NCBI GenBank assembly: GCA_947628305.1
Contig: CANQZG010000002.1
Coordinates: 186,001-250,000 of the forward strand
Reading direction: 5' to 3'
DNA: 64,000 nucleotides
From: an uncultured Muribaculaceae bacterium
GTDB lineage: Bacteria > Bacteroidota > Bacteroidia > Bacteroidales > Muribaculaceae
The notes under the pieces are model-generated. The model ran no database searches and was not told the origin of the DNA. It worked only from the letters and a program-made list of their open reading frames with translations. The position numbers and the translations under genes were made by a program. Positions 1 to 54,109 of the stretch are shown piece after piece. Within the stretch, counting starts at the first letter, position 1, and every line of letters begins with the position of its first letter.

Positions 1-1314
1 ACAGTGTATCATCGCGTAGGCTGTCATGCGATTATGACGGTGTTTGAGAAATACACATATCCGACCCTGATAACGAACACAGGAGCCTCGATTAAAGGGC
101 GAGGTATGCACTGGCTCTTTCATGTCATCAAAGAAGATATGAGCCGAGTGCCAGAGTTCATGAAGTATTTCTATCAGTGTGATGTCTGCCACTACTACGA
201 CAACATCAGCCAAAGAATTATGAAGTGGCAGATCCGGCAATATACCTCTGACCCGATATTGCTGCCTCAACTTGATAATTTCGTGGAACTGCTGCCGGAG
301 GGCTTATCAAAGGGCCTCCGTTCTTCGCAATGCTTTGCCAATCTCCACCTCTCGGACATAGACCACAAAATGAGCGCGAGGGTAAGGAACTATGTCTTTA
401 CGGAGAATGGCATTGAAGAGTGCGTGCCGGTGGCTGTCGGGCAGGGTGAAATGACACTCAAGTGGCAAAAGGTACGCTTCCTGTATTACCGATACTGCGA
501 TGACATAGTAATATTCGCTCCCACGAAAAAAGAACTATGGCTGCTTCGGGATTATCTCGTGTCGTTGCTGGCCGAGAAAGGATTGCAAGTAAAGCCGAGT
601 GAGGCAGTACGCCCTTTGAGTGAGGGCAATGACTATCTCGGTTTCAAGAATTATGGCACTCATACCCTGATTAGGAAAAGGACAAAGCAAAAGTTTGCGA
701 GGGCGTTAGCGAGGGTGAAATCTCGTAAGCGCCGGCAGAAATTGATTGGCTCATTCTTTGGAATGGCGAGCCATGCAGACAGTCGGCATCTGCTAAAAAC
801 GCTTCTCGCTCCCAGTGAGTATAAACGATTAAAGTTCAAAGACAAGATGAAAGATTTCGGTGATTTCAAACTCAATCCTACCACCCTTGACGGCAAAAAG
901 AACTTCCGGGGGAATAAGATCAGCCCTCGTGAGTTAGACGGCAAAGGTTTCATCGTGGTAGATTTCGAGAGCGACGTAGTAGCCAGACGAGATAGGGAAG
1001 AATATCAGCGCAGGCTTCAGGACGCGAGTGTGAGGGGTGTTAATCCTGACCTCGTGGAGAAGCCCAAGACAAAGTATATCATTCAGATAATCTATCAGGG
1101 AGCCTTACGCAAAATGTGGACTGGCGACCGCGACCTGTGGAACATACTCGACCAGATAGCCGATGAGAACGGATTTCCGTTCTTTGCTGCTATTGAAATG
1201 GACTATTCCGGCCAATACCCCAAAGCCAATTTCGTATCAGCTTCTAAGTTCAACATCACGGCTCCCTCCGACAAAGAATTGGAAAGTATTCTCAATCGTT
1301 TCAACCTCAAATAA
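1..1314 (+). CDS. DGR-type reverse transcriptase, 5' end outside window
   Basis: RNA-directed DNA polymerase. The frame is open to base 1, so about 90 N-terminal residues are probably missing. Numbering from the GTG at base 4: SIKGRG (29-34) is the motif 2 region, the first catalytic Asp lies near D60, motif 4 reads GLRSSQCFAN (104-113) and motif 5 is YCDD (164-167). The SQ in motif 4, in place of the SP of group II intron and retron enzymes, is the hallmark of diversity-generating retroelement RTs. After the thumb-like part (about residue 270) there is an extra tail of about 160 residues that I do not recognise. The template repeat and accessory protein of a DGR normally lie upstream of the RT, here outside the window. 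RT call is certain; DGR subtype likely. Confidence 0.88.
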   Translation, partial: TVYHRVGCHAIMTVFEKYTYPTLITNTGASIKGRGMHWLFHVIKEDMSRVPEFMKYFYQCDVCHYYDNISQRIMKWQIRQYTSDPILLPQLDNFVELLPEGLSKGLRSSQCFANLHLSDIDHKMSARVRNYVFTENGIEECVPVAVGQGEMTLKWQKVRFLYYRYCDDIVIFAPTKKELWLLRDYLVSLLAEKGLQVKPSEAVRPLSEGNDYLGFKNYGTHTLIRKRTKQKFARALARVKSRKRRQKLIGSFFGMASHADSRHLLKTLLAPSEYKRLKFKDKMKDFGDFKLNPTTLDGKKNFRGNKISPRELDGKGFIVVDFESDVVARRDREEYQRRLQDASVRGVNPDLVEKPKTKYIIQIIYQGALRKMWTGDRDLWNILDQIADENGFPFFAAIEMDYSGQYPKANFVSASKFNITAPSDKELESILNRFNLK

Positions 1315-4104: not shown

Positions 4105-4189
4105 AAAGTTGGTCTAAATTTTTTTTTAGTTGGGAGTGGTGATTTATGCCGTTAAAATTTGCACAAAAGATAATTTTTGATTAGTTTTG
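4105..4189 (+). promoter_or_regulatory. phage promoter P1
   Basis: TTTG (4158-4161), a 20-base spacer and TAGTTTTG (4182-4189). The spacer (ACAAAAGATAATTTTTGAT core) is almost identical to those of P2-P4. An AAAGTT box (4105-4110) lies 54 bases before the TTG, as in P2. P1 drives the 4244 gene; its leader resembles that of P4 and contains GCAAATAAGT at 4219. Confidence 0.82.
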
Positions 4190-11983: not shown

Positions 11984-12057
11984 AAAGTTAAAAATACGAT
12001 TTGAGGAAAAATAATTACTGCAAAACTTGTATAAAAGATAATTTTTGTGTAGTTTTG
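11984..12057 (+). promoter_or_regulatory. phage promoter P4
   Basis: TTG (12027-12029), 20-base spacer, TAGTTTTG (12050-12057); upstream AAAGTTAAAAATACGATTTG starts at 11984, only 43 bases before the TTG, eleven less than in P1 and P2. The leader (CATTGTGGAAATCAAACCAC and on) is nearly that of P1. It drives the gene with the candidate variable region. Confidence 0.85.
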
Positions 12058-12117: not shown

Positions 12118-12732
12118 ATGAAAATCGAATTTTCAGATGAACAGCTTGTGGCTCTATACCGCACTGGTGGTGATGAAGCCCGAAAAGCAATCAAGGAGGC
12201 TCTCGGCGATGAGTTCTCCGAAAAACTCCCTGTAACCTTACGAGTACAGACATTTAACGATGCTGAACGAGAACTCGGCGATGACCACCCGGCGGTCAAG
12301 GCATGGCGCTCTCTCAAGTATGGCTATGCTGTATCTGACACAGACCCAGAAACGGCCGACATCATGGCATACGCCACTCTGCGCGTAATCACCGAAGCCC
12401 TCAACGAGGGGTGGAAGCCCCAGTTTACAGAGGGAGAGCGTCGCTGGTACGCTTGGTATGATTTCCTCACCAAAGAAGAGGTAGAGAAAATGTCCGATGA
12501 AGAGAAAAGGGAGTGCCGTGTCGTTGGCCGTGCGTTCAACAATGCGTTTGCGAATGGCGGCCTCGTTTACTCGAACGCGAACTACGTTTCTACGAACTCG
12601 TACGCGGACTACGGCTCTCGGCTCGCCTTCAAGAATGAGGAATTGGCAGAATATGCCGCCAAGCAGTTTGGCGACATCTACGCTGATTTCTGCTTCATTC
12701 CCAAAGCAGCCTGCAAGAATGAAAAAGACTGA
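12118..12732 (+). CDS. candidate DGR target protein
   Basis: 204 residues. N-terminal part acidic and helical, then NEGWKPQFTEGERRWYAWYDFLTKEEVEKMSDEEK, a segment of about 30 residues made almost only of A, N, Y, S, T, D, G, F, V and L (139-165), and a conserved-looking tail GSRLAFKNEELAEYAAKQFGDIYADF. I remember Bacteroidales phage proteins with the same frame (RV.GG.A ... GSRLCFK.EELAEYAGKQF) and a variable centre. The centre here uses NCG and NAY codons, as a variable region of a diversity-generating retroelement would. First gene behind P4. The ligand or function of the variable surface is unknown. Confidence 0.75.
   Translation: MKIEFSDEQLVALYRTGGDEARKAIKEALGDEFSEKLPVTLRVQTFNDAERELGDDHPAVKAWRSLKYGYAVSDTDPETADIMAYATLRVITEALNEGWKPQFTEGERRWYAWYDFLTKEEVEKMSDEEKRECRVVGRAFNNAFANGGLVYSNANYVSTNSYADYGSRLAFKNEELAEYAAKQFGDIYADFCFIPKAACKNEKD
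12532..12627 (+). other. candidate DGR variable region (VR) with GC-rich 3' end
   Basis: 32 codons, residues 139-170. Eight are NCG (five GCG, two TCG, one ACG) and eleven are AAC, AAT, TAC or GAC; in the other 173 codons of the gene NCG occurs only three times. Such codons arise when adenines of ACG and AAY codons in a template are replaced at random. The 3' end GGCTCTCGGCTCGCC (12613-12627) is GC-rich like an initiation-of-mutagenic-homology site. No matching template repeat was found in the window; it may lie left of base 1, next to the reverse transcriptase. Confidence 0.6.
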
Positions 12733-12861: not shown

Positions 12862-13368
12862 ATGCCTAAACGAAACCTCAATGAGAAAATGGCCTTTGAT
12901 AAGTGGTTTGTAATGAACTACTCCCGGCTCAAAGAGAAAATCGGTCTGGTGAGCATTTTCGATGATGACGCATTTCACGACGCATACCTGACACTTGCGA
13001 CATCAAAAGACCTGCCGCCGGTAGCCGAAGATTATAGCAAAATCTTCTTGACAACATACAGGCAAGCATCGCGCAGAGCCTTGAACGAGAGCTACACAAT
13101 TTGCCACCCGGACGAGTTATTCTTTACCCTGCTTCCTGACATCGAAGAAGAAAAGGAGGAAAAAGACCTTACGAGTCTGGTAAAAAATATCGGCAAATTC
13201 ATTCTCAACACTTTCACATCGACCCAGCAGACGGTCTTCCAGATGAGAGTGCAAGGCTTCTCGATAAGAGATACTGCCGACTCCCTCAATCTGAATGACC
13301 GGCAAGTCAGGGAGAATATGGACGACGTGATATGTAGAACCCGCAAGCAGTTCGCTTTCGCAATATAA
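12862..13368 (+). CDS. probable phage RNA polymerase sigma factor (ECF-like)
   Basis: 168 residues. The N-terminal half has the layout of region 2 (DDDAFHDAYLTLA, about 35-47, and FLTTYRQASRRALNE). The C-terminal part (STQQTVFQMRVQGFSIRDTADSLNLNDRQVRENMDDVICRTRKQF, about 118-164) is a region 4 helix-turn-helix. An acidic linker (DIEEEKEEKDL) joins them. It would recruit host RNA polymerase to phage promoters. P1-P5, with their unusually uniform spacer, or late promoters outside the window are possible targets. Sigma-like fold fairly clear; targets inferred. Confidence 0.72.
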   Translation: MPKRNLNEKMAFDKWFVMNYSRLKEKIGLVSIFDDDAFHDAYLTLATSKDLPPVAEDYSKIFLTTYRQASRRALNESYTICHPDELFFTLLPDIEEEKEEKDLTSLVKNIGKFILNTFTSTQQTVFQMRVQGFSIRDTADSLNLNDRQVRENMDDVICRTRKQFAFAI

Positions 13369-19492: not shown

Positions 19493-19566
19493 GAGAGTAT
19501 ATAAAGCAAACGACATAAATTACAAACAAAGCCTTGGGCGGCTTAGTAAAACCCACCAGTAACAAC

Positions 19567-20283
19567 ATGAAAAAGTACATCGGTACTAAACAGGTTATGG
19601 CTGCTCCCATGACCTATGGACAGGCCCACAAAGAAGGACTTATCCGTGAAAACGCTTATGTCGAAGAATACGACGAGCGCCCCGGTTATCTCGTAGAATA
19701 CGCAGATGGCTACAAATCATGGTCGCCGGCAGACGTATTTGAGGCAGCCTACAAGGTCGCCGAAACGCCTCTTGACCGAGTGAACATCGAAATCGCAGAT
19801 GTCATGTCACGCGCAAACAAACTCGGCGATTTCATCTACAATCGCAATGAAGGCAAGGACTTTCAAGCTATGCCTCTCGGTACTCGAGCATTCCTCGTGG
19901 CACAGCATCAGACGATGGGCGCATATCTGACCCTGCTGTGCCTGCGTCAGTCCTGCATGGAAGGAGGCGAAGAATGCCGTCCGTGGGGTCTGTCCTTTGA
20001 GCAAGTGCTTCCTATGATACGCGAGGGCTATGCCGTGCGCCGCGAAATCTGGGGAGAGAACGGCAAAATGGTGTTCAAGCAAGTGCCGGCCCATATCACG
20101 GCTGACATTATCCCAAAAATGCAGTCGCTCCCAGATGAGGCCAAGCGTCTCGTGTTGGCCGCTGGCGATCACATAGACTATGTTTCGCAGTGCCTCATAT
20201 TCGACCCCGGAAGCAGCACTGCAAATTCGTGGTGTCCGTCAGTAGATGACCTCTTCGCTCACGACTGGCAACTCGTATTCTGA
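19567..20283 (+). CDS. three-domain anti-defence candidate: KYIGTK domain, Acb2/Tad1-like hairpin, Tad2 (DUF2829)
   Basis: 238 residues. Residues 1-62 (MKKYIGTKQVMAAPM, YLVEYADGYKSWSP) are a domain common in Bacteroidales phages. Residues 66-130 (DRVNIEIADVMSRANKLGDFI, LVAQHQTMGAYLTLLCLR) match the two-helix pattern ERV..E...L..KL..FI......LL..Q..AM..Y that I know from Acb2 and Tad1. Residues 142-238 (LSFEQVLPMIREGYAVRRE, WCPSVDDLFAHDWQLV) match DUF2829, the Tad2 domain. Acb2, Tad1 and Tad2 bind cyclic nucleotide or gcADPR signals and so block CBASS or Thoeris. This protein may be a combined sponge; motif matches only, activity unproven. Confidence 0.78.
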   Translation: MKKYIGTKQVMAAPMTYGQAHKEGLIRENAYVEEYDERPGYLVEYADGYKSWSPADVFEAAYKVAETPLDRVNIEIADVMSRANKLGDFIYNRNEGKDFQAMPLGTRAFLVAQHQTMGAYLTLLCLRQSCMEGGEECRPWGLSFEQVLPMIREGYAVRREIWGENGKMVFKQVPAHITADIIPKMQSLPDEAKRLVLAAGDHIDYVSQCLIFDPGSSTANSWCPSVDDLFAHDWQLVF

Positions 20284-23889: not shown

Positions 23890-25110
23890 TCACGCTTCAA
23901 GTTCAGAAATTAACTGCTCCATACTTTTGTCAGAGGCCACGGCATCGAAAACTCTCCGTATAGCTTTGTCGGCCATTCTCTTGTTGACTCTGACATAAAA
24001 CGACAAGGCCCTGTTAGATGGTAACGGCGAGTCGCCGATGCAGTATTCAATTACCGAGTCCTTTATCATAAGTTCATTGGCAATCTGCGAGAATGTCTTA
24101 CGAGCTGAATAGAATATCAGTTTTTCAAACCCGATTTTCTTCCTTAGTTTTATCAGGTGGTCTGCATTTATATGTTGGATTGAGCGTTCGGTAGTAAAGT
24201 TATTGAATTTCAATTTACCCTCGGAGGTCAGGTATTTGTCGAGAATGGCTCTCGCCTCCGGCTGTATGGTGAACTCTGTTGTGTCGTTAGCATCGCGTCG
24301 TTTGAAAGTCTTTTGTCTGATGAAACTCACGGAGTCTTTCGTTAGGTCGAGCCGCAGAATGTCAGCCAAGTTCATGCCGCATAAATAGAAACTCAACATA
24401 AAGAGGTCGCGGGCATAAATCTCCCACTTGTCTGTAAGCTCCATGTCGCGCATTTGGCGTAGTTGGTCAAGAGATAGAGCAATATCCCTGCGAGCCGATT
24501 TGACGGTCTTGTAGTCCAAAAAGGGATACACTTTATACTTGACATATCCATGTCGTATAGCATACTTGACCAATCGCTTCAACGACTCCATGCGCATCCC
24601 GACTGTGGTCTGCGAATATCCTAACTTTTCCAAAAACTTATGATAGGCAACCACGTTGTCATGGGTCAAGGTACAGAGAACGAAATCTTTTCCGGCGTAT
24701 TCAATGAACCGATTTATTCCTTGCTTGAACCCGGCCACAGTTGATTTAGACCAAGCGTGCTCTCGATTGGCAAGCATATCCTCCGAAATTTGCTCGACGG
24801 TCTTTAATCCTGTGTTCTGTTCTTGCCGCTTGGTGAGCATATTGACCAGTTGGGCGCAAGTGTAGTAGTCGATGTCCTCCAATTCATCACACGCCTTATA
24901 AAAGTCATTCATGCGTGTACGGAGTTGGAGATTGATGTATTGAGCATTCGGCACTCCTACCACGTTACCGTTTTTCAGGTTCTTTGGACTGGGAACAGTG
25001 AAGCGAGTAGGAATGTAGCGAGTCTGAGAGTTATGGCTGACGGCAATCCTCAATTTGTGGGAGCCGTCGGCCAGCACTTTTAGTGGTAATATGACTATTC
25101 TGATATTCAT
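23890..25110 (-). CDS. int: tyrosine-type site-specific integrase
   Basis: 406 residues from the ATG at 25110 (MNIRIVILPLKVLADGSHKLRIAVSH), the usual start of Bacteroidales integrases; the frame is open further upstream. N-terminal arm-binding part, SAM-like core-binding part (about 95-185), C-terminal catalytic part. The Arg of box 1 is replaced (GMNLADILRL), as in several Bacteroidales families; box 2 reads SARKTFSQIA and the nucleophile is the Tyr in SFYVRV. It integrates and, with an excisionase, excises the prophage. Sits at the prophage edge next to mutL. Confidence 0.9.
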   Translation of the reverse strand: MNIRIVILPLKVLADGSHKLRIAVSHNSQTRYIPTRFTVPSPKNLKNGNVVGVPNAQYINLQLRTRMNDFYKACDELEDIDYYTCAQLVNMLTKRQEQNTGLKTVEQISEDMLANREHAWSKSTVAGFKQGINRFIEYAGKDFVLCTLTHDNVVAYHKFLEKLGYSQTTVGMRMESLKRLVKYAIRHGYVKYKVYPFLDYKTVKSARRDIALSLDQLRQMRDMELTDKWEIYARDLFMLSFYLCGMNLADILRLDLTKDSVSFIRQKTFKRRDANDTTEFTIQPEARAILDKYLTSEGKLKFNNFTTERSIQHINADHLIKLRKKIGFEKLIFYSARKTFSQIANELMIKDSVIEYCIGDSPLPSNRALSFYVRVNKRMADKAIRRVFDAVASDKSMEQLISELEA

Positions 25111-25114
25111 TATT

Positions 25115-25172
25115 CCGACAATAAAACGACAATAATCAGCCGTCGGTTTAGTGTCGGACAACAATCTGACAA
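25115..25172. repeat. paired GACAA repeats beside the integrase, candidate arm sites
   Basis: GACAA occurs at 25117, 25128, 25157 and 25168: two pairs with 11-base spacing, 40 bases apart. Located directly upstream of the integrase start, where arm-type integrase or Xis sites are expected. The attachment core cannot be fixed because the left end is not in the window. The rest of 25173-25292 holds nothing I can name. Confidence 0.45.
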
Positions 25173-27210: not shown

Positions 27211-28866
27211 TTATTCCCCTTGTAGCAAGGTGTCCATCTCGGGCGGATAATCAAATATCTCATCGGGCGAGAGGGGACGCAGTTTGTCATACCATCGGAA
27301 CTTAGGCAGAAAATAGCTTGAACGTTTCGCAAGGTAGAGTGGTGTGACATTTCCGCTCGTCTCGGGCCACAGATGTATTTTTTTTACCTGATTGTTGTCG
27401 AAAGTGGCGTTCAGTGTCGAGCTCTCGGTATAGGAATACTTGTTATAGGTCGAGTCATTCTCCATGGGGAATTGTATGACCTGGACATTTCCCTCGGCAT
27501 AAAGACGTGTTATGGTGGTGTCGTTTATCCATACCTTCATGTCTTTTCCCGCGAGTTGGTTGAAGCAGTCCTCGTCGATGTGCTCGGCTACCATACCCAT
27601 GTTGGGAAGCCGTGCCCAGTCGACGGTCGAGTCGTTGAGGTGTACATGGATGACATTCCCGGTTATCTGTCGCAGTCCGCTCCACACCACCGGATGACGG
27701 AACATCTTCAGCAGCGAGTCGCTCTCGGTCACGCTCATCGAGTCACACAGTCCTTGGATGTCGACGCGGTAGAAACGCACGCGCCGGTAACAGTTGGTGA
27801 CACGTGTGGAGTCAGGGAGATAATAGGCGTTGATTGTGTCTCCGTGCATGTACAGCGTGTCCTTGCGGGAATATTCCATAGCCACGGCATCGCCGGTCAC
27901 AAACGCGCTGTCGGCGATTTCGTTGTAAAAACCATAATCGCCCAGCAATGTGGACTGCCGTGCCGAGTCGGTCAGCACCATGTTGCCGAACGCCTCTCCG
28001 AAACCTTTGTTACGGTCATAGAACAGTGTGTCGCCGGTGAGAGTGTTTCCACGTCGGGTGATTACAGTCGAGCGGGAAAACAGTCTTGCCTCGCCTGAGC
28101 CGGTGTTATAGTTTCCCGATGATGACAGTATTTCGCCGTCACGGTTGATTATGCGGGTGTCGCACAGCAGACGGGCGATGTGGGTGAATGTGTTGTACTG
28201 CAACGAATCGGTGTACATTCTCAATGTGTCGTTGGGACGCAGGGACTGCAACTTGACATCGTCATAGAAGAATGCGTCCTTGGACGACGGATAATAGTAT
28301 CCCTCGATTGATGTCAGGCGGTTTTCGCGGTCGGTCAGTACGCCGCCATATTGATAATATCCCACATTGCGGGTGAGGTCATAGTCAAATTGGTCGGTCT
28401 CGAGTTTTACGTCTCGGTTTATCATGCGCACCTTTTTCCCGGCGTTGGCAAACAGTTTGGCAATCTCGCTCATGCCGTTGTAGTTTAGTTCGTCGGCGTA
28501 GACAAAGAGTGTGTCGCCCTGTTCCATCCTGACGTTTGAAAAGGCGTCGAGCGAGTTGGTGCTTTCGTAGAAATAGGCACTGTCGCAATACATGAACATA
28601 TCGTTCTTGCGAAACACGACGTTACCCGACAACACTTGGTAATCACGAGAACGGCTCTCATCGAGTTCAAGGATGTCGGCATGTTCGAGGAATACTTTCC
28701 CCGGCTCATGACGGTCGGCTGTCGGGATGACCGGCTTGAACTGCGGGGCATTTGACGACCGGGCCGGAGCCTGTGCGAGTATAACCGGCAGGGCGAGCAA
28801 CGTTACACACGCTATCGCCACCAATCCGCGGTAATTGCGACTGATGAAATTCCGTGAATGGGGCAT
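27211..28866 (-). CDS. OstA-like (LptA/LptD N-terminal) envelope protein
   Basis: 551 residues with an N-terminal signal (GLVAIACVTLLALPVILAQ). The rest is a long run of beta strands of the OstA type (for example DYQVLSGNVVFRKNDMFMYCDSAYFYE and DQFDYDLTRNVGYYQYGGVL). In Bacteroidota this family is thought to take part in lipopolysaccharide transport. Between a SurA-like isomerase (upstream) and mutL, as in related genomes. Confidence 0.88.
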   Translation of the reverse strand: MPHSRNFISRNYRGLVAIACVTLLALPVILAQAPARSSNAPQFKPVIPTADRHEPGKVFLEHADILELDESRSRDYQVLSGNVVFRKNDMFMYCDSAYFYESTNSLDAFSNVRMEQGDTLFVYADELNYNGMSEIAKLFANAGKKVRMINRDVKLETDQFDYDLTRNVGYYQYGGVLTDRENRLTSIEGYYYPSSKDAFFYDDVKLQSLRPNDTLRMYTDSLQYNTFTHIARLLCDTRIINRDGEILSSSGNYNTGSGEARLFSRSTVITRRGNTLTGDTLFYDRNKGFGEAFGNMVLTDSARQSTLLGDYGFYNEIADSAFVTGDAVAMEYSRKDTLYMHGDTINAYYLPDSTRVTNCYRRVRFYRVDIQGLCDSMSVTESDSLLKMFRHPVVWSGLRQITGNVIHVHLNDSTVDWARLPNMGMVAEHIDEDCFNQLAGKDMKVWINDTTITRLYAEGNVQVIQFPMENDSTYNKYSYTESSTLNATFDNNQVKKIHLWPETSGNVTPLYLAKRSSYFLPKFRWYDKLRPLSPDEIFDYPPEMDTLLQGE

Positions 28867-28869
28867 TTT

Positions 28870-29139
28870 AGAGTATGTTTGGATTTAACAGACAGAAATT
28901 TTTATGCGGAGTCTTGAGAGGATTTTGGCCATGCAGCCGAGGGAGTGATGCGGGCATCTTGACCGAGGCAAAGGGACAAAAGCATCCAAGAGACCGTATA
29001 CGGGACTCCTTGACGGCATCTTCCGGCCATTTCCGTTTCTCTCGCTCGTCATGTATCTCGATACACTCCTCACTCGGAGACCCGGAACTGTCTCGAAACC
29101 TGCCTATAAAAATTCGACTGTTAAATTCAAACATACTCT
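28870..29139. mobile_element. 270 bp palindrome-ended repeat, copy A
   Basis: Left end AGAGTATGTTTGGATTTAAC, right end its near-perfect inverse (TTAAATTCAAACATACTCT). Internal sequence is shared with copies B and C (for example GCAGCCGAGGGAGTGATGCG, CATCTTCCGGCCATTTCC). No transposase; open frames inside are not conserved between copies. Fills the gap between the OstA-like gene and the surA-like gene completely, up to the TAA of the latter. MITE-like or structured intergenic repeat. Confidence 0.85.
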
Positions 29140-30509: not shown

Positions 30510-30602
30510 TGTATCTCTGTTTAAAGATTAGGAGTGCTAAGGTGTCCATATACACGCTCTGACGCGGGATGTCGCGTCAGAGTGCCGTTATTGACACGCT
30601 TT

Positions 30603-30872
30603 AGAGTCTGTCTTGATTTAACAGTCGAATTTTTATAGGCAGGTTTCGAGACAGTTCCGCGTCTCCGAGCGAGGAGTGTATCGAGATACATGACGAACGA
30701 GAGACGTGGAAATGGCCGGAAGATGCCGTCAAGGAGTCCATCGTGCGGTCTCTTGGACGCTTTTGACCCTTTGCCTCGGTCACGATGCTCGCATCGCTCC
30801 CTCGGCTGCATGTCCAAAATCATCCCAAGACTCCGCATAAAAATTTCTGACTGTTAAATCAAGACAGACTCT
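30603..30872. mobile_element. 270 bp palindrome-ended repeat, copy B (inverted)
   Basis: Opposite orientation to copies A and C. Ends: AGAGTCTGTCTTGATTTAAC and its perfect inverse (GTTAAATCAAGACAGACTCT). The outer sequence differs from that of copy A, yet both ends of this copy changed together. Lies between the two isomerase genes. Remaining bases of 30510-30944 show nothing else. Confidence 0.85.
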
Positions 30873-30944
30873 TAGACGGTGTCAAAGTTACGAAAAATAG
30901 CTTAAAGCGTATATATCAGCCGATGAAAAATCGACAGGGTGCAG

Positions 30945-48189: not shown

Positions 48190-50211
48190 CCTGAAAGGGG
48201 TGTCCCGTAATGTACGGTAGGGAATACCGGCTTCTTTGAGTGAGTTTACATATCGGTTATGTCTCCTGTGGTCGAGGTCGGATGACAGAAGTACTGTATC
48301 GGGTCTTAATGATTCGTATGCACGCATGATTTCTCCCCTGAATCCTCGACATATAACGGCGTAATTGATGAGTGTTGAATCAGATGCCATCCTGTTTGCA
48401 ATAGAGTCATTTGACACAAACAGGAATTTAAGGCCGTTGAAGTATAGGGTGGCATTGTCTCGTTGGATTATGTTGGAATGATACCTCACGGGCAGTTCCT
48501 TTATCGAGTGTATACCGCGACGGCCGGTATAATCTTTAAGCATGTCGGTGTCATATACTTGTTTATGTGTTGATGTGGCAAAAGTCCATAGTGTGTCACG
48601 TTCCTTGATTATCGCCTCGGTTACTCCATATCTTCCCGAAATGAACATCTCGGAGTCATAGACCACAGGTTGTGCAATCGCGATGGAAAGAACGAGGGTC
48701 GCCATGAGCATTGCCGATGCCGTGATGTAGACGCGCTGTCGTTTCGCCACGGCAAGCCATCCCGTGAAGGCAGTGGCGATGTACAGTAACGTGGACGGCC
48801 AGGGCAAATAAATATTATCGATTGACGCACCGGGTAATGAAGTGATGAATCCCATGATTCCGATGATTGCATCATAGATGCTGTCACATGCGGCGCATAA
48901 CAGTGTCATGGAAAATCCCAAGGCCTGACCGATGATGACTATTATGCCACCCCCGATTAAGAACGGGAGCAACAGGGTCGTCACCGCGTTGGACAATAGA
49001 AAATAGACCGGGAAGACATGGAAATAGAATGCGGCCACGAATCCACTGCCGATAATTGCCGCGATGCTCGCCGAGAGATAGCCTCCTGCGAGGCGACTTA
49101 CTCTTTTACGGGAATTGCGCCATGGGTTGAGATTTGTCGCAAAGAGCAAAATCGAGCCTACCGACAGGAATGAAAGTTGAAACCCGATGTCGAACAGTGC
49201 CTGCGGGTCTGCGACGAGAATTATTATCGATGCGGCACACAGGGAATTGAGTGGCGTTGATTTATGCTGGATAATACGTCCGATAAGAAACAGCGAGGCC
49301 ATTATGACGGCACGTGTGACTGATGCTGACATGCCGGTGGCTAATGCGAAAAGCCACAGTAGCGCAATGGTGATGGCTCGCATTGTCCTGCGATGTCGTG
49401 TGACATATAACGGGAAAAGCATCAGGGTGATGACTGTTGATATTATGGCGACATGAAGGCCACTTAAAGCGAGGATGTGGGCCGTACCCGCTTGGGAGAA
49501 CAGAGACCGAGATAATAACGATATGTCGGAATCGTCACCGGTTACTATCGCATTTAGGAAATATTTGGTGTCGTTTGATAATCGTGATTCATATATCAGG
49601 TCGGTTATATTTTCGCTGAAACGCGTGAACGGGGATAATGCGGTCTCATGGTGTCCGATGACTGATATATCGTTTTCCGACACGACAGCTTTCATCACAA
49701 GTCCCTTGGCTCGTAACATGGCATTGATATCGGGGATGTCAGGTAGGTCGGGAGGGGATGTTGTCGTCTTGGCTGTGGCCGGGAATGTTATATCGTGGCC
49801 CGGTATAAAGGCATCGCTTGCGGCCGGGATTAAGACCAGGGCCGGGAATGACGGTACGCGGGATTGCCCTATAGAGTCTATTCTGACGGTTAATTGTTGC
49901 CATCCGTTGCCTTTCACCGGGGATACGGCGGTGACAGTGCCTTGGAAACGATGTGTCTCGTCATTGAAAATGTCAGTAGGCGGTAAGGTCGGTTGTGACA
50001 GGCGCGCGATGAAATATCCGGCAAGCATTACTATCCCTGCAGTGGCTATGACTGAACGACGTACCGCCATCCCTGCGGTGACGATTGCCAAAGGAAGTGC
50101 GAGAAACCATGGCGACAGGATGAAAGTGGCGGCCACGATACCTGCCATTAACATTATCGCGGGCGTCAGTAACGGAATGTGGGGAAGATGACGCTTTTGA
50201 GGGGTGTACAT
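48151..50211 (-). CDS. ComEC/Rec2-type DNA channel protein
   Basis: 686 residues. Many membrane segments: N-terminal DUF4131-type part (about 1-190), competence domain with IVTGDDSDISLLSRSLFSQAGTAHILALSGLHVAIIS (about 225-265). The C-terminal part keeps only a short domain; the metallo-beta-lactamase motifs HxHxDH of many ComEC proteins are not visible. Carries DNA across the inner membrane in transformable species. Shares 39 bases with folK. Confidence 0.88.
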   Translation of the reverse strand: MYTPQKRHLPHIPLLTPAIMLMAGIVAATFILSPWFLALPLAIVTAGMAVRRSVIATAGIVMLAGYFIARLSQPTLPPTDIFNDETHRFQGTVTAVSPVKGNGWQQLTVRIDSIGQSRVPSFPALVLIPAASDAFIPGHDITFPATAKTTTSPPDLPDIPDINAMLRAKGLVMKAVVSENDISVIGHHETALSPFTRFSENITDLIYESRLSNDTKYFLNAIVTGDDSDISLLSRSLFSQAGTAHILALSGLHVAIISTVITLMLFPLYVTRHRRTMRAITIALLWLFALATGMSASVTRAVIMASLFLIGRIIQHKSTPLNSLCAASIIILVADPQALFDIGFQLSFLSVGSILLFATNLNPWRNSRKRVSRLAGGYLSASIAAIIGSGFVAAFYFHVFPVYFLLSNAVTTLLLPFLIGGGIIVIIGQALGFSMTLLCAACDSIYDAIIGIMGFITSLPGASIDNIYLPWPSTLLYIATAFTGWLAVAKRQRVYITASAMLMATLVLSIAIAQPVVYDSEMFISGRYGVTEAIIKERDTLWTFATSTHKQVYDTDMLKDYTGRRGIHSIKELPVRYHSNIIQRDNATLYFNGLKFLFVSNDSIANRMASDSTLINYAVICRGFRGEIMRAYESLRPDTVLLSSDLDHRRHNRYVNSLKEAGIPYRTLRDTPFRLRLERLKRPIGE

Positions 50212-53113: not shown

Positions 53114-53766
53114 TGGTCATTCCTCTTATATTGACCCAATAGGATGCGGTCGCGTATTCGGTTGTTTTTCCTGATATCGTTCTCGAGGGTTATGATTGCA
53201 ACAATCACCGCGTAGGCGAGGTTTAGGTCATAATTCCCTGTTAGGTGGATGATGAACATGTTCTTGAGGTCGGTGAGCATCTCGGCTACCGGGGATTGGG
53301 AGAAAAGTCCGGTGTCATCGATTTCCTTGCCTTCCAACAGGGTGGGGAACAATTGTTGTGCGTCCTGCTCGATATTCACAAGAAGCTGTTTTTTCACGCT
53401 TTCAAAAAAGCGTCTCATCAACGACAGGTTGCTGTTGTCGCTTGATGTGTGTAACAGTGCGTCAAAGTGTCGTTCTATGTTGGGTATCTGGAATCGGGTA
53501 TAATAATTGTGGGTCTTTGTCAGATAGTCCACGATAGTCGATACCTGGACGCTTTTCAATGCCTGTTCGGGGAAATACTCGTCATCGGAGTATGTGTTTA
53601 TTATCGATAAAAGGAAATCGGGGTCGAGCCTGTGACTGTCGCTCGTCTCGCGCAAGGTCATGTCGCCGGTCCCGAGTGTTATGCCGAAACGGTTCAGCAC
53701 CGGGATTATGGAAGGCTCTTTGATTACTATTTCGCTTAGTCTTACGTCTGGATTGAAATGTGGCAT
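53110..53766 (-). CDS. DUF542-type hemerythrin-like protein
   Basis: 218 residues. The N-terminal part (VRLSEIVIKEPSIIPVLNRFGITLGTGDMTL) resembles the DUF542 domain of iron-sulfur repair proteins (ScdA/YtfE), without the usual Cys. The rest is a helical bundle with scattered His and Glu (NIERHFDALLHTSSD, IHLTGNYDLNLAYAVIVAI) that may bind a di-iron centre. Probably a redox or nitric oxide-responsive partner of the LuxR-type regulator. Confidence 0.72.
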   Translation of the reverse strand: MPHFNPDVRLSEIVIKEPSIIPVLNRFGITLGTGDMTLRETSDSHRLDPDFLLSIINTYSDDEYFPEQALKSVQVSTIVDYLTKTHNYYTRFQIPNIERHFDALLHTSSDNSNLSLMRRFFESVKKQLLVNIEQDAQQLFPTLLEGKEIDDTGLFSQSPVAEMLTDLKNMFIIHLTGNYDLNLAYAVIVAIITLENDIRKNNRIRDRILLGQYKRNDQ

Positions 53767-53780
53767 GAATGATGGTTTTA

Positions 53781-54088
53781 AGAGTATGTTGAGATTTAAC
53801 AGTTAGAAATTTTTATGCGGAGTCTTGAGATGATTTTGTTCATGCAGCCGAGGGAGTGATGCGGGCATCATGACCGAGGCAAAGGGATAAAAGCATCCAA
53901 GAGACCGCAGATATGACTCCTTGACAGCATCTTCCGGCCATTTCCGTGTCTCTCGCTCGTCATGTATCTCGATACAACCACGCAAGTGCTCGCGTGTGGG
54001 CTTGACCCACCGCACTCCTCGCTCGGAGACTCGGAACTGCCTCGAAATCTGCCTATAAAAATTCGACTGTTAAAACTCAACATACTCT
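53781..54088. mobile_element. 308 bp palindrome-ended repeat, copy C
   Basis: Ends AGAGTATGTTGAGATTTAAC and inverse TTAAAACTCAACATACTCT. Same orientation as copy A, but with about 38 extra bases containing a small hairpin (CCACGC / GCGTGTGG). Outer sequence again differs from copies A and B, in both ends together. Fills the gap between the DUF542 gene and the 5-FTHF cyclo-ligase gene. Confidence 0.85.
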
Positions 54089-54109
54089 AAATGTCGTGGA
54101 CCGGGAGCG

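Follow-up and report, generated by a model that had tools for sequence, protein, structure and literature searches.

A probable remote second target of a prophage DGR and its recurring family in Bacteroidales phages

Genes and features at the locus

The DNA analysed, called the window, is a stretch of 64,000 nucleotides that corresponds to C2:186001-250000, where C2 is the contig that carries it. The prophage genes within it, from a gut-type bacterium, follow in the order lysis genes, RadC, a 204-aa gene (the target), a sigma-like gene, a Tad2-like gene, Bro-N and an integrase. The features discussed below are collected in Table 1.

The reverse transcriptase (RT) at the left edge has the motif GxxxSQ in the form GLRSSQ, together with YCDD. 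It matches the profile phrog_1423 (E=5e-57), and Pfam RVT_1 only under its cut-off (24.4 vs 29.6). Its identity to annotated phage RTs is 33-37%, including those of the Hankyphage type (33-34%). No Avd was seen beside the RT, the gene behind it being DUF4376-like, although not all neighbours were scanned.

The promoter-like element before the target is of a Bacteroidales type and is repeated. Further copies of TTG-N20-TAGTTTTG at 4154, 7830, 9198 and 22202 precede several phage gene blocks. The Tad2-like gene belongs to the same rightward block as the target and lies 7 kb downstream of it. An Rfam search of window positions 1-26000 found nothing.

The host part of the window contains intergenic repeats at 28855-29139, 30600-30874 and 53766-54090, which share 211 bases at 90% and have the ends GCATAAAAATTT...GACTGTTAAATC. 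On contig C19 of the same genome, a second prophage encodes a diversity-generating retroelement (DGR) of its own, with a family member of the 204-aa gene as its remote target 39 kb away.

Table 1. Positions of the features discussed (plain numbers refer to the window, prefixed ones to the named contig)
Feature	Position	Strand	Remark
Tail protein gene, 2724 aa	C2:177105-185279		left of window; holds VR1
VR1	C2:185110-185226		left of window; end of the tail protein gene
Template repeat (TR)	C2:185388-185508		left of window; between end of the tail protein gene and RT start
RT gene, 3' part in window	1-1314	+	537 aa; start at C2:185701, 300 bases left of window
Promoter-like repeated phage element	12022-12097	+	TTG-N20-TAGTTTTG at 12027-12057; directly upstream of target gene
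DGR target gene, 204 aa	12118-12732	+	phrog_11581 family; VR2 encodes residues ~132-172
VR2, remote variable repeat	12513-12633	+	121 bases; ~13 kb from TR
GC-rich IMH-like 3' end of VR2	12612-12627	+	CGGCTCTCGGCTCGCC; identical in VR1, unlike TR (IMH* ...CTCACATTC)
Next gene after target	12862-13368	+	weak sigma-70 region 4-like match
Tad2-like (PF11195) gene	19534-20283	+	45.8 bits, cut-off 25
Tyrosine integrase	23890-25164	-	marks right part of prophage; adjoins host mutL
Second DGR system, same genome	G000:C19:10244-10519 and 49634-49979		
Tad2-like/target fusion	L157:5534-6433		also L273-L278

Template and variable repeats

Searching the genome's DNA with the suspect segment of the target gene brought up two extra copies, at C2:185388-185508 (91%) and C2:185110-185226 (86%), both on the same contig and 0.5-0.9 kb left of the window. 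The segment in the window and the first of these copies share 110 of their 121 bases; the 11 mismatches are without exception on adenines of that copy (P = 7e-8). The copy in the tail protein gene likewise differs from it at adenines only (13 of 13). Because both differ from C2:185388-185508 in this way alone, that copy is identified as the template repeat (TR), the end of the tail gene as a first variable repeat (VR1) and the segment in the 204-aa gene as a second (VR2). The distance from TR to VR2 is 13.0 kb.

At the 3' end, VR1 and VR2 have GCTCGCCTTC in common, while TR reads GCTCACATTC. The two 3'-most adenine differences (ACA in TR, GCC in the variable repeats) are the same in VR1 and VR2. 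They therefore look like a fixed difference between IMH and IMH*, which leaves nine diversified sites in VR2.

In the VR2 frame, the 27 TR adenines before IMH* occupy codon position 1 fourteen times, position 2 thirteen times and position 3 never, and no combination of adenine replacements yields a stop codon. Up to 15 residues can change, giving a computed total of about 8e15 reachable proteins. Hairpins are present downstream of VR1 and VR2 in the window prophage. They are not conserved in relatives, as judged by eye, and are thus not claimed as a DGR element.

The original prediction, made from the sequence alone, had placed a variable region at 12532-12627, which is right except that the true repeat is slightly longer (12513-12633). 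The enrichment in NCG and NAY codons on which it rested is real: the 32 codons from 12532 include 8 NCG and 11 NAY, against 3 and 27 in the other 172 sense codons, and a codon window as rich in the two appeared in 3 of 20,000 codon shuffles. Its GC-rich segment at an IMH-like position (12612-12627, CGGCTCTCGGCTCGCC) is also confirmed. So are its RT with GxxxSQ at 1-1314, which the template adjoins, and its distance of about 11 kb between RT and target (11.2 kb from the RT end to VR2). The template of about 100 bases that it expected left of the window exists as a copy of about 120 bases, differing from the gene at adenines alone.

It is thus very likely (probability about 0.9) that 12513-12633 is a second, remote variable repeat of the phage DGR and that the 204-aa gene is its remote second target. 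This figure covers the remote-target claim and not the function. That the target has been diversified is near certain. Current activity in the window prophage is not shown, no reads or sister strains of it having been compared.

The only close relative of the window phage found in IMG/VR is one truncated contig (3300035325_000087) without the target gene. At positions 67-187 of this contig (L080), a VR-like sequence with adenine changes and the GCC end stands in the template slot, between the template flanks. Assembly collapse is one possible cause, and overwriting of the template by a variable repeat is another.

Template-target pairing in related phages

Relatives were gathered from host genomes, annotated phages and viral contigs. 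In each, the repeat copy nearest the RT was taken as TR, a rule that is blind to adenines. The 34 phages or prophages compared, taken from 31 records, have 454 mismatches in all, 434 of them at the 895 TR adenines and 20 at the 2859 remaining bases. The adenines change to G in 201 cases, to T in 168 and to C in 65. Each VR2 fits its own TR best, or ties for best, when only non-A template bases are compared, and an RT lies beside the template in every system. Not all 34 systems are independent, some having near-identical templates (for instance G265 and G038:C8).

The pairing also appears in long viral contigs that were picked solely for the target gene, 14 of 15 of which hold a matching pair of TR and VR1, 12-75 kb from the target and on either strand. 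Over all cases, the family recurs as a second target at distances of 4-75 kb, again on either strand. No adenine-restricted copy was found in the examined flanks of 80 target loci. A survey restricted to the surroundings of either the target or the RT would therefore fail to connect the two.

Pairing could not be established everywhere. Ten further host genomes carry the gene, and in eight of these, some of them fragmentary and one nearly complete, a matching template is absent. For a homologue from Lentimicrobiaceae (L028), only a non-cognate template was found, with 12 of 26 mismatches at A. At G224:C55:44708-44857, a target gene has a variable-looking end and no matching template, though the same contig has a DGR at 9 kb.

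Variation between near-identical phages

An example of diversification at the level of populations is provided by six LoVEphage-type genomes with an identical template. A search of IMG/VR for the LoVEphage target gave no match. Within their VR2, 23 of 24 template-A sites are variable, compared with none of 84 other sites (Fisher 1.3e-22). Strain differences limited to template adenines, which had been predicted for the window prophage, are thus met in relatives and were not tested in the prophage itself. All 13 variable codons inside VR2 are nonsynonymous and none synonymous. Outside VR2, the same gene has 5 nonsynonymous and 11 synonymous variable codons, so that this part is under purifying change in LoVEphage-type genomes.

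These comparisons show that templates and targets pair, that the changes are specific to adenines, that the system is conserved across phages and that it varies between near-identical ones. The gene is a conserved, intact and selectively diversified target.

The target protein and its setting

The target belongs to phrog_11581, a family of unknown function, which it matches over its full length (E=7e-45, residues 2-197). The same family is matched by all 62 aligned relatives. Searches of Pfam, NCBIfam and PADLOC gave no family for the target. The gene lies outside the tail module, and no homology to tail proteins was found beyond the VR; the sole tail-family match spans residues 132-172.

A structure model based on the 62-row alignment has a confident helical N-terminal part, with VR residues 136-163 below pLDDT 50. 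PDB searches by fold and by sequence gave no meaningful match. The C-type-lectin fold expected for the VR is therefore unconfirmed. Single-sequence fold prediction was unusable (pLDDT 37). The N-terminal part varies among family members, being helical in the window target, of a short 'VFDQ-GII' type in some and different again in others.

The family is present in 36 of 397 genomes of the host's bacterial family. Among further genomes, it occurs in 12 of 392 sampled from the rest of the order and in none of 295 from the rest of the phylum. In the samples examined, targets of the phrog_11581 type are confined to the host's order.

The neighbourhood of the gene in relatives is that of DNA metabolism, the target usually lying within a replication/recombination operon. 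The LoVEphage target follows exonuclease VIII, RecT, HU, a Holliday resolvase and a methyltransferase in an operon behind the repressor, and it is encoded on the other strand from the tail genes. In 77 loci, the genes that recur nearby share the strand of the target and encode a Lin1244-type protein, RecT, a YqaJ nuclease, a beta-lactamase-fold protein, helicase/primase and Toprim/DnaB-like proteins and a methylase. A repressor-like gene, named from its sequence without a Pfam match, stands on the opposite strand in 13 of the 77. Signal peptide, lipobox and membrane segment are absent in nearly all of 66 proteins of the target family.

From the neighbours in relatives it can be inferred that the target is made early. 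It is likewise inferred that it stays in the cytoplasm, where its variable face would bind a variable host partner. The original prediction of a protein other than a tail fibre held as far as it was tested, the gene being outside the tail module and secretion signals being missing from nearly all its relatives. That the protein is early, as was also predicted, rests on inference from those neighbours, and its probably intracellular nature is likewise inferred.

Fusion with a Tad2-like domain

In seven viral contigs from different samples, one of them partial, a Tad2-like domain (PF11195, 31.2 bits, cut-off 25) is fused in frame to the target core, where it takes the place of the N-terminal part. 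The fused VR is paired with a template on two contigs that carry one, with 18 of 18 and 14 of 15 mismatches at A and 14-15 kb between the repeats, so the fusion too is a diversified target. No template was found on a third long contig with the fusion. In the window target itself, no PF11195 domain was found; only the fused lineage has it. The window prophage encodes a separate copy.

Known Tad2, an anti-Thoeris protein, is a fixed signal sponge (PMC12043709) and, unlike the fusion, is not known to have a hypervariable domain. PF11195 is a broad family, and the activity of the Tad2-like domain is untested here. The literature searched held no paper tying a DGR to Thoeris counter-defence.

Mechanism and possible function

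In the proposed mechanism, the RT would copy the RNA of the adjoining template repeat, misreading adenines. The mutated cDNA would then replace the matching ends of two genes, that of the neighbouring tail protein and that of the 204-aa non-structural protein 13 kb off. An intracellular target would use its variable face for binding a variable host partner, and the protein is accordingly inferred, not shown, to be an intracellular hypervariable binding protein.

Its most likely function is counter-defence, that is, neutralising host immune proteins or their signals. This inference has no assay behind it and stands as much chance of being wrong as of being right. It is favoured because of the Tad2-like fusion, the methylase neighbours and the separate Tad2-like gene of the window prophage. 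It is limited by the breadth of PF11195 and by the fact that only 2 of 77 loci have a Tad2-like domain within 5 kb of the target, one of these being the fusion. A bolder reading, against which the odds lean slightly, is that Bacteroidales phages carry a dedicated early cytoplasmic family whose binding face is continuously randomised by the tail's own retroelement. Such a family would be an antibody-like counter-immune repertoire against variable host defences, coupled in one lineage to an anti-Thoeris-type sponge domain.

Alternative explanations

Ordinary repeat divergence is ruled out by the adenine restriction. Duplication or gene conversion between the repeats, without any DGR, could be imagined, since repeats this long could recombine, but 34 systems with changes restricted to adenines, in all of which an RT adjoins the template, practically exclude it. 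It is also very unlikely that VR2 of the window prophage is a fossil, once diversified by its DGR and now abandoned. Room for a fossil is left by the lack of strain-level data for this prophage and by some relatives that have VR-like ends without a matching template. However, the 110 unchanged bases match the template exactly, without a single non-adenine change, where an abandoned copy would drift, and homologous systems differ between near-identical phages.

Other alternatives accept the DGR and concern what the target does. The target could be a virion, injected or surface protein, in effect a second adhesin. The well-studied phage DGR targets are all receptor-binding proteins, and Bacuni phages have two adhesin-like targets of the DUF1566 type (PMC8143477). 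This is nevertheless unlikely, given that nearly all 66 proteins lack a signal peptide, lipobox or membrane segment, that the gene sits among replication and recombination genes (and, in LoVEphage, does not share a strand with the tail genes), and that the window target matches a tail family in its VR alone. A possibility that remains is an intracellular protein serving lysogeny or competition between phages, such as superinfection exclusion or recognition of repressors and antirepressors. Repressor-like genes, inferred from sequence, lie nearby in 13 loci, and many carriers are temperate. Against this, the Tad2-like fusion and the methylase neighbours favour counter-defence, and no neighbour points specifically to superinfection control.

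Relation to known systems

The window system resembles the DGRs of BPP-1 and Hankyphage in its RT, adjoining TR, VR in a tail protein and adenine-specific change. For those, only a structural target is described, whereas the window has a second, non-structural one 13 kb off.

Second, distant targets have been described case by case in Quimbyvirus, Bacuni phages and gut prophages, so the kind is already known. In Quimbyvirus, methyltransferases and a tRNA ligase surround a second DGR target that is non-structural (Benler 2021, PMC8008677). As in LoVEphage (PMC8525569), there are two VRs: a tail-associated gene contains the first, and the second belongs to a remote non-structural gene with methyltransferase and tRNA ligase genes nearby. 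Their distant target is on the opposite strand, while the window target is on the strand of the RT. Phage, host and tail protein are also different, and a target family common to many phages was not reported there. The LoVEphage gene tested is very likely the published ORF84/ORF80 target, an inference drawn from the alignment of both papers to the same B. dorei prophage (CP011531.1).

A 2025 paper in Nature described four inducible prophage species in which another VR lies away from the RT, close to DNA methyltransferase genes (PMC12629997). No protein family, structure or breadth was found in the text of that paper, and its phages were not matched one to one with those studied here. Bacuni phages have two DGR targets, one far from the RT (Hedzet 2021, PMC8143477). 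In Bacuni_F1, the remote target (L271, 22548-23222) is part of the replication module and neighbours a C5-methyltransferase gene. It differs in being of the DUF1566/Lcl_C type, unrelated to the phrog_11581 family by profile comparison, and in the presence of Avd. Possibly, an unrelated remote target in a replication module near methyltransferases reflects convergence.

Not found described in the literature searched are this locus, the single recurring target family, its breadth, its setting in replication operons and the Tad2-like fusion. The method of one DGR survey, by its own statement, cannot see remote targets (Roux 2021, PMC8144416).

Significance

Phage DGRs are understood as tools for receptor switching. 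In the system described here, a single template feeds two proteins that do different work: the first is at the tail tip, and the second, by all genomic signs, acts inside the cell. DGR surveys confined to the vicinity of the RT may miss a whole class of targets. Because a single family recurs as the second target, its function becomes testable in cultured, inducible phages (LoVEphage, BI-TP1, PV4-TP1 and BT-TP2). That the target is hit alike in more than 30 related phages points to a fast-changing weapon against host defences.
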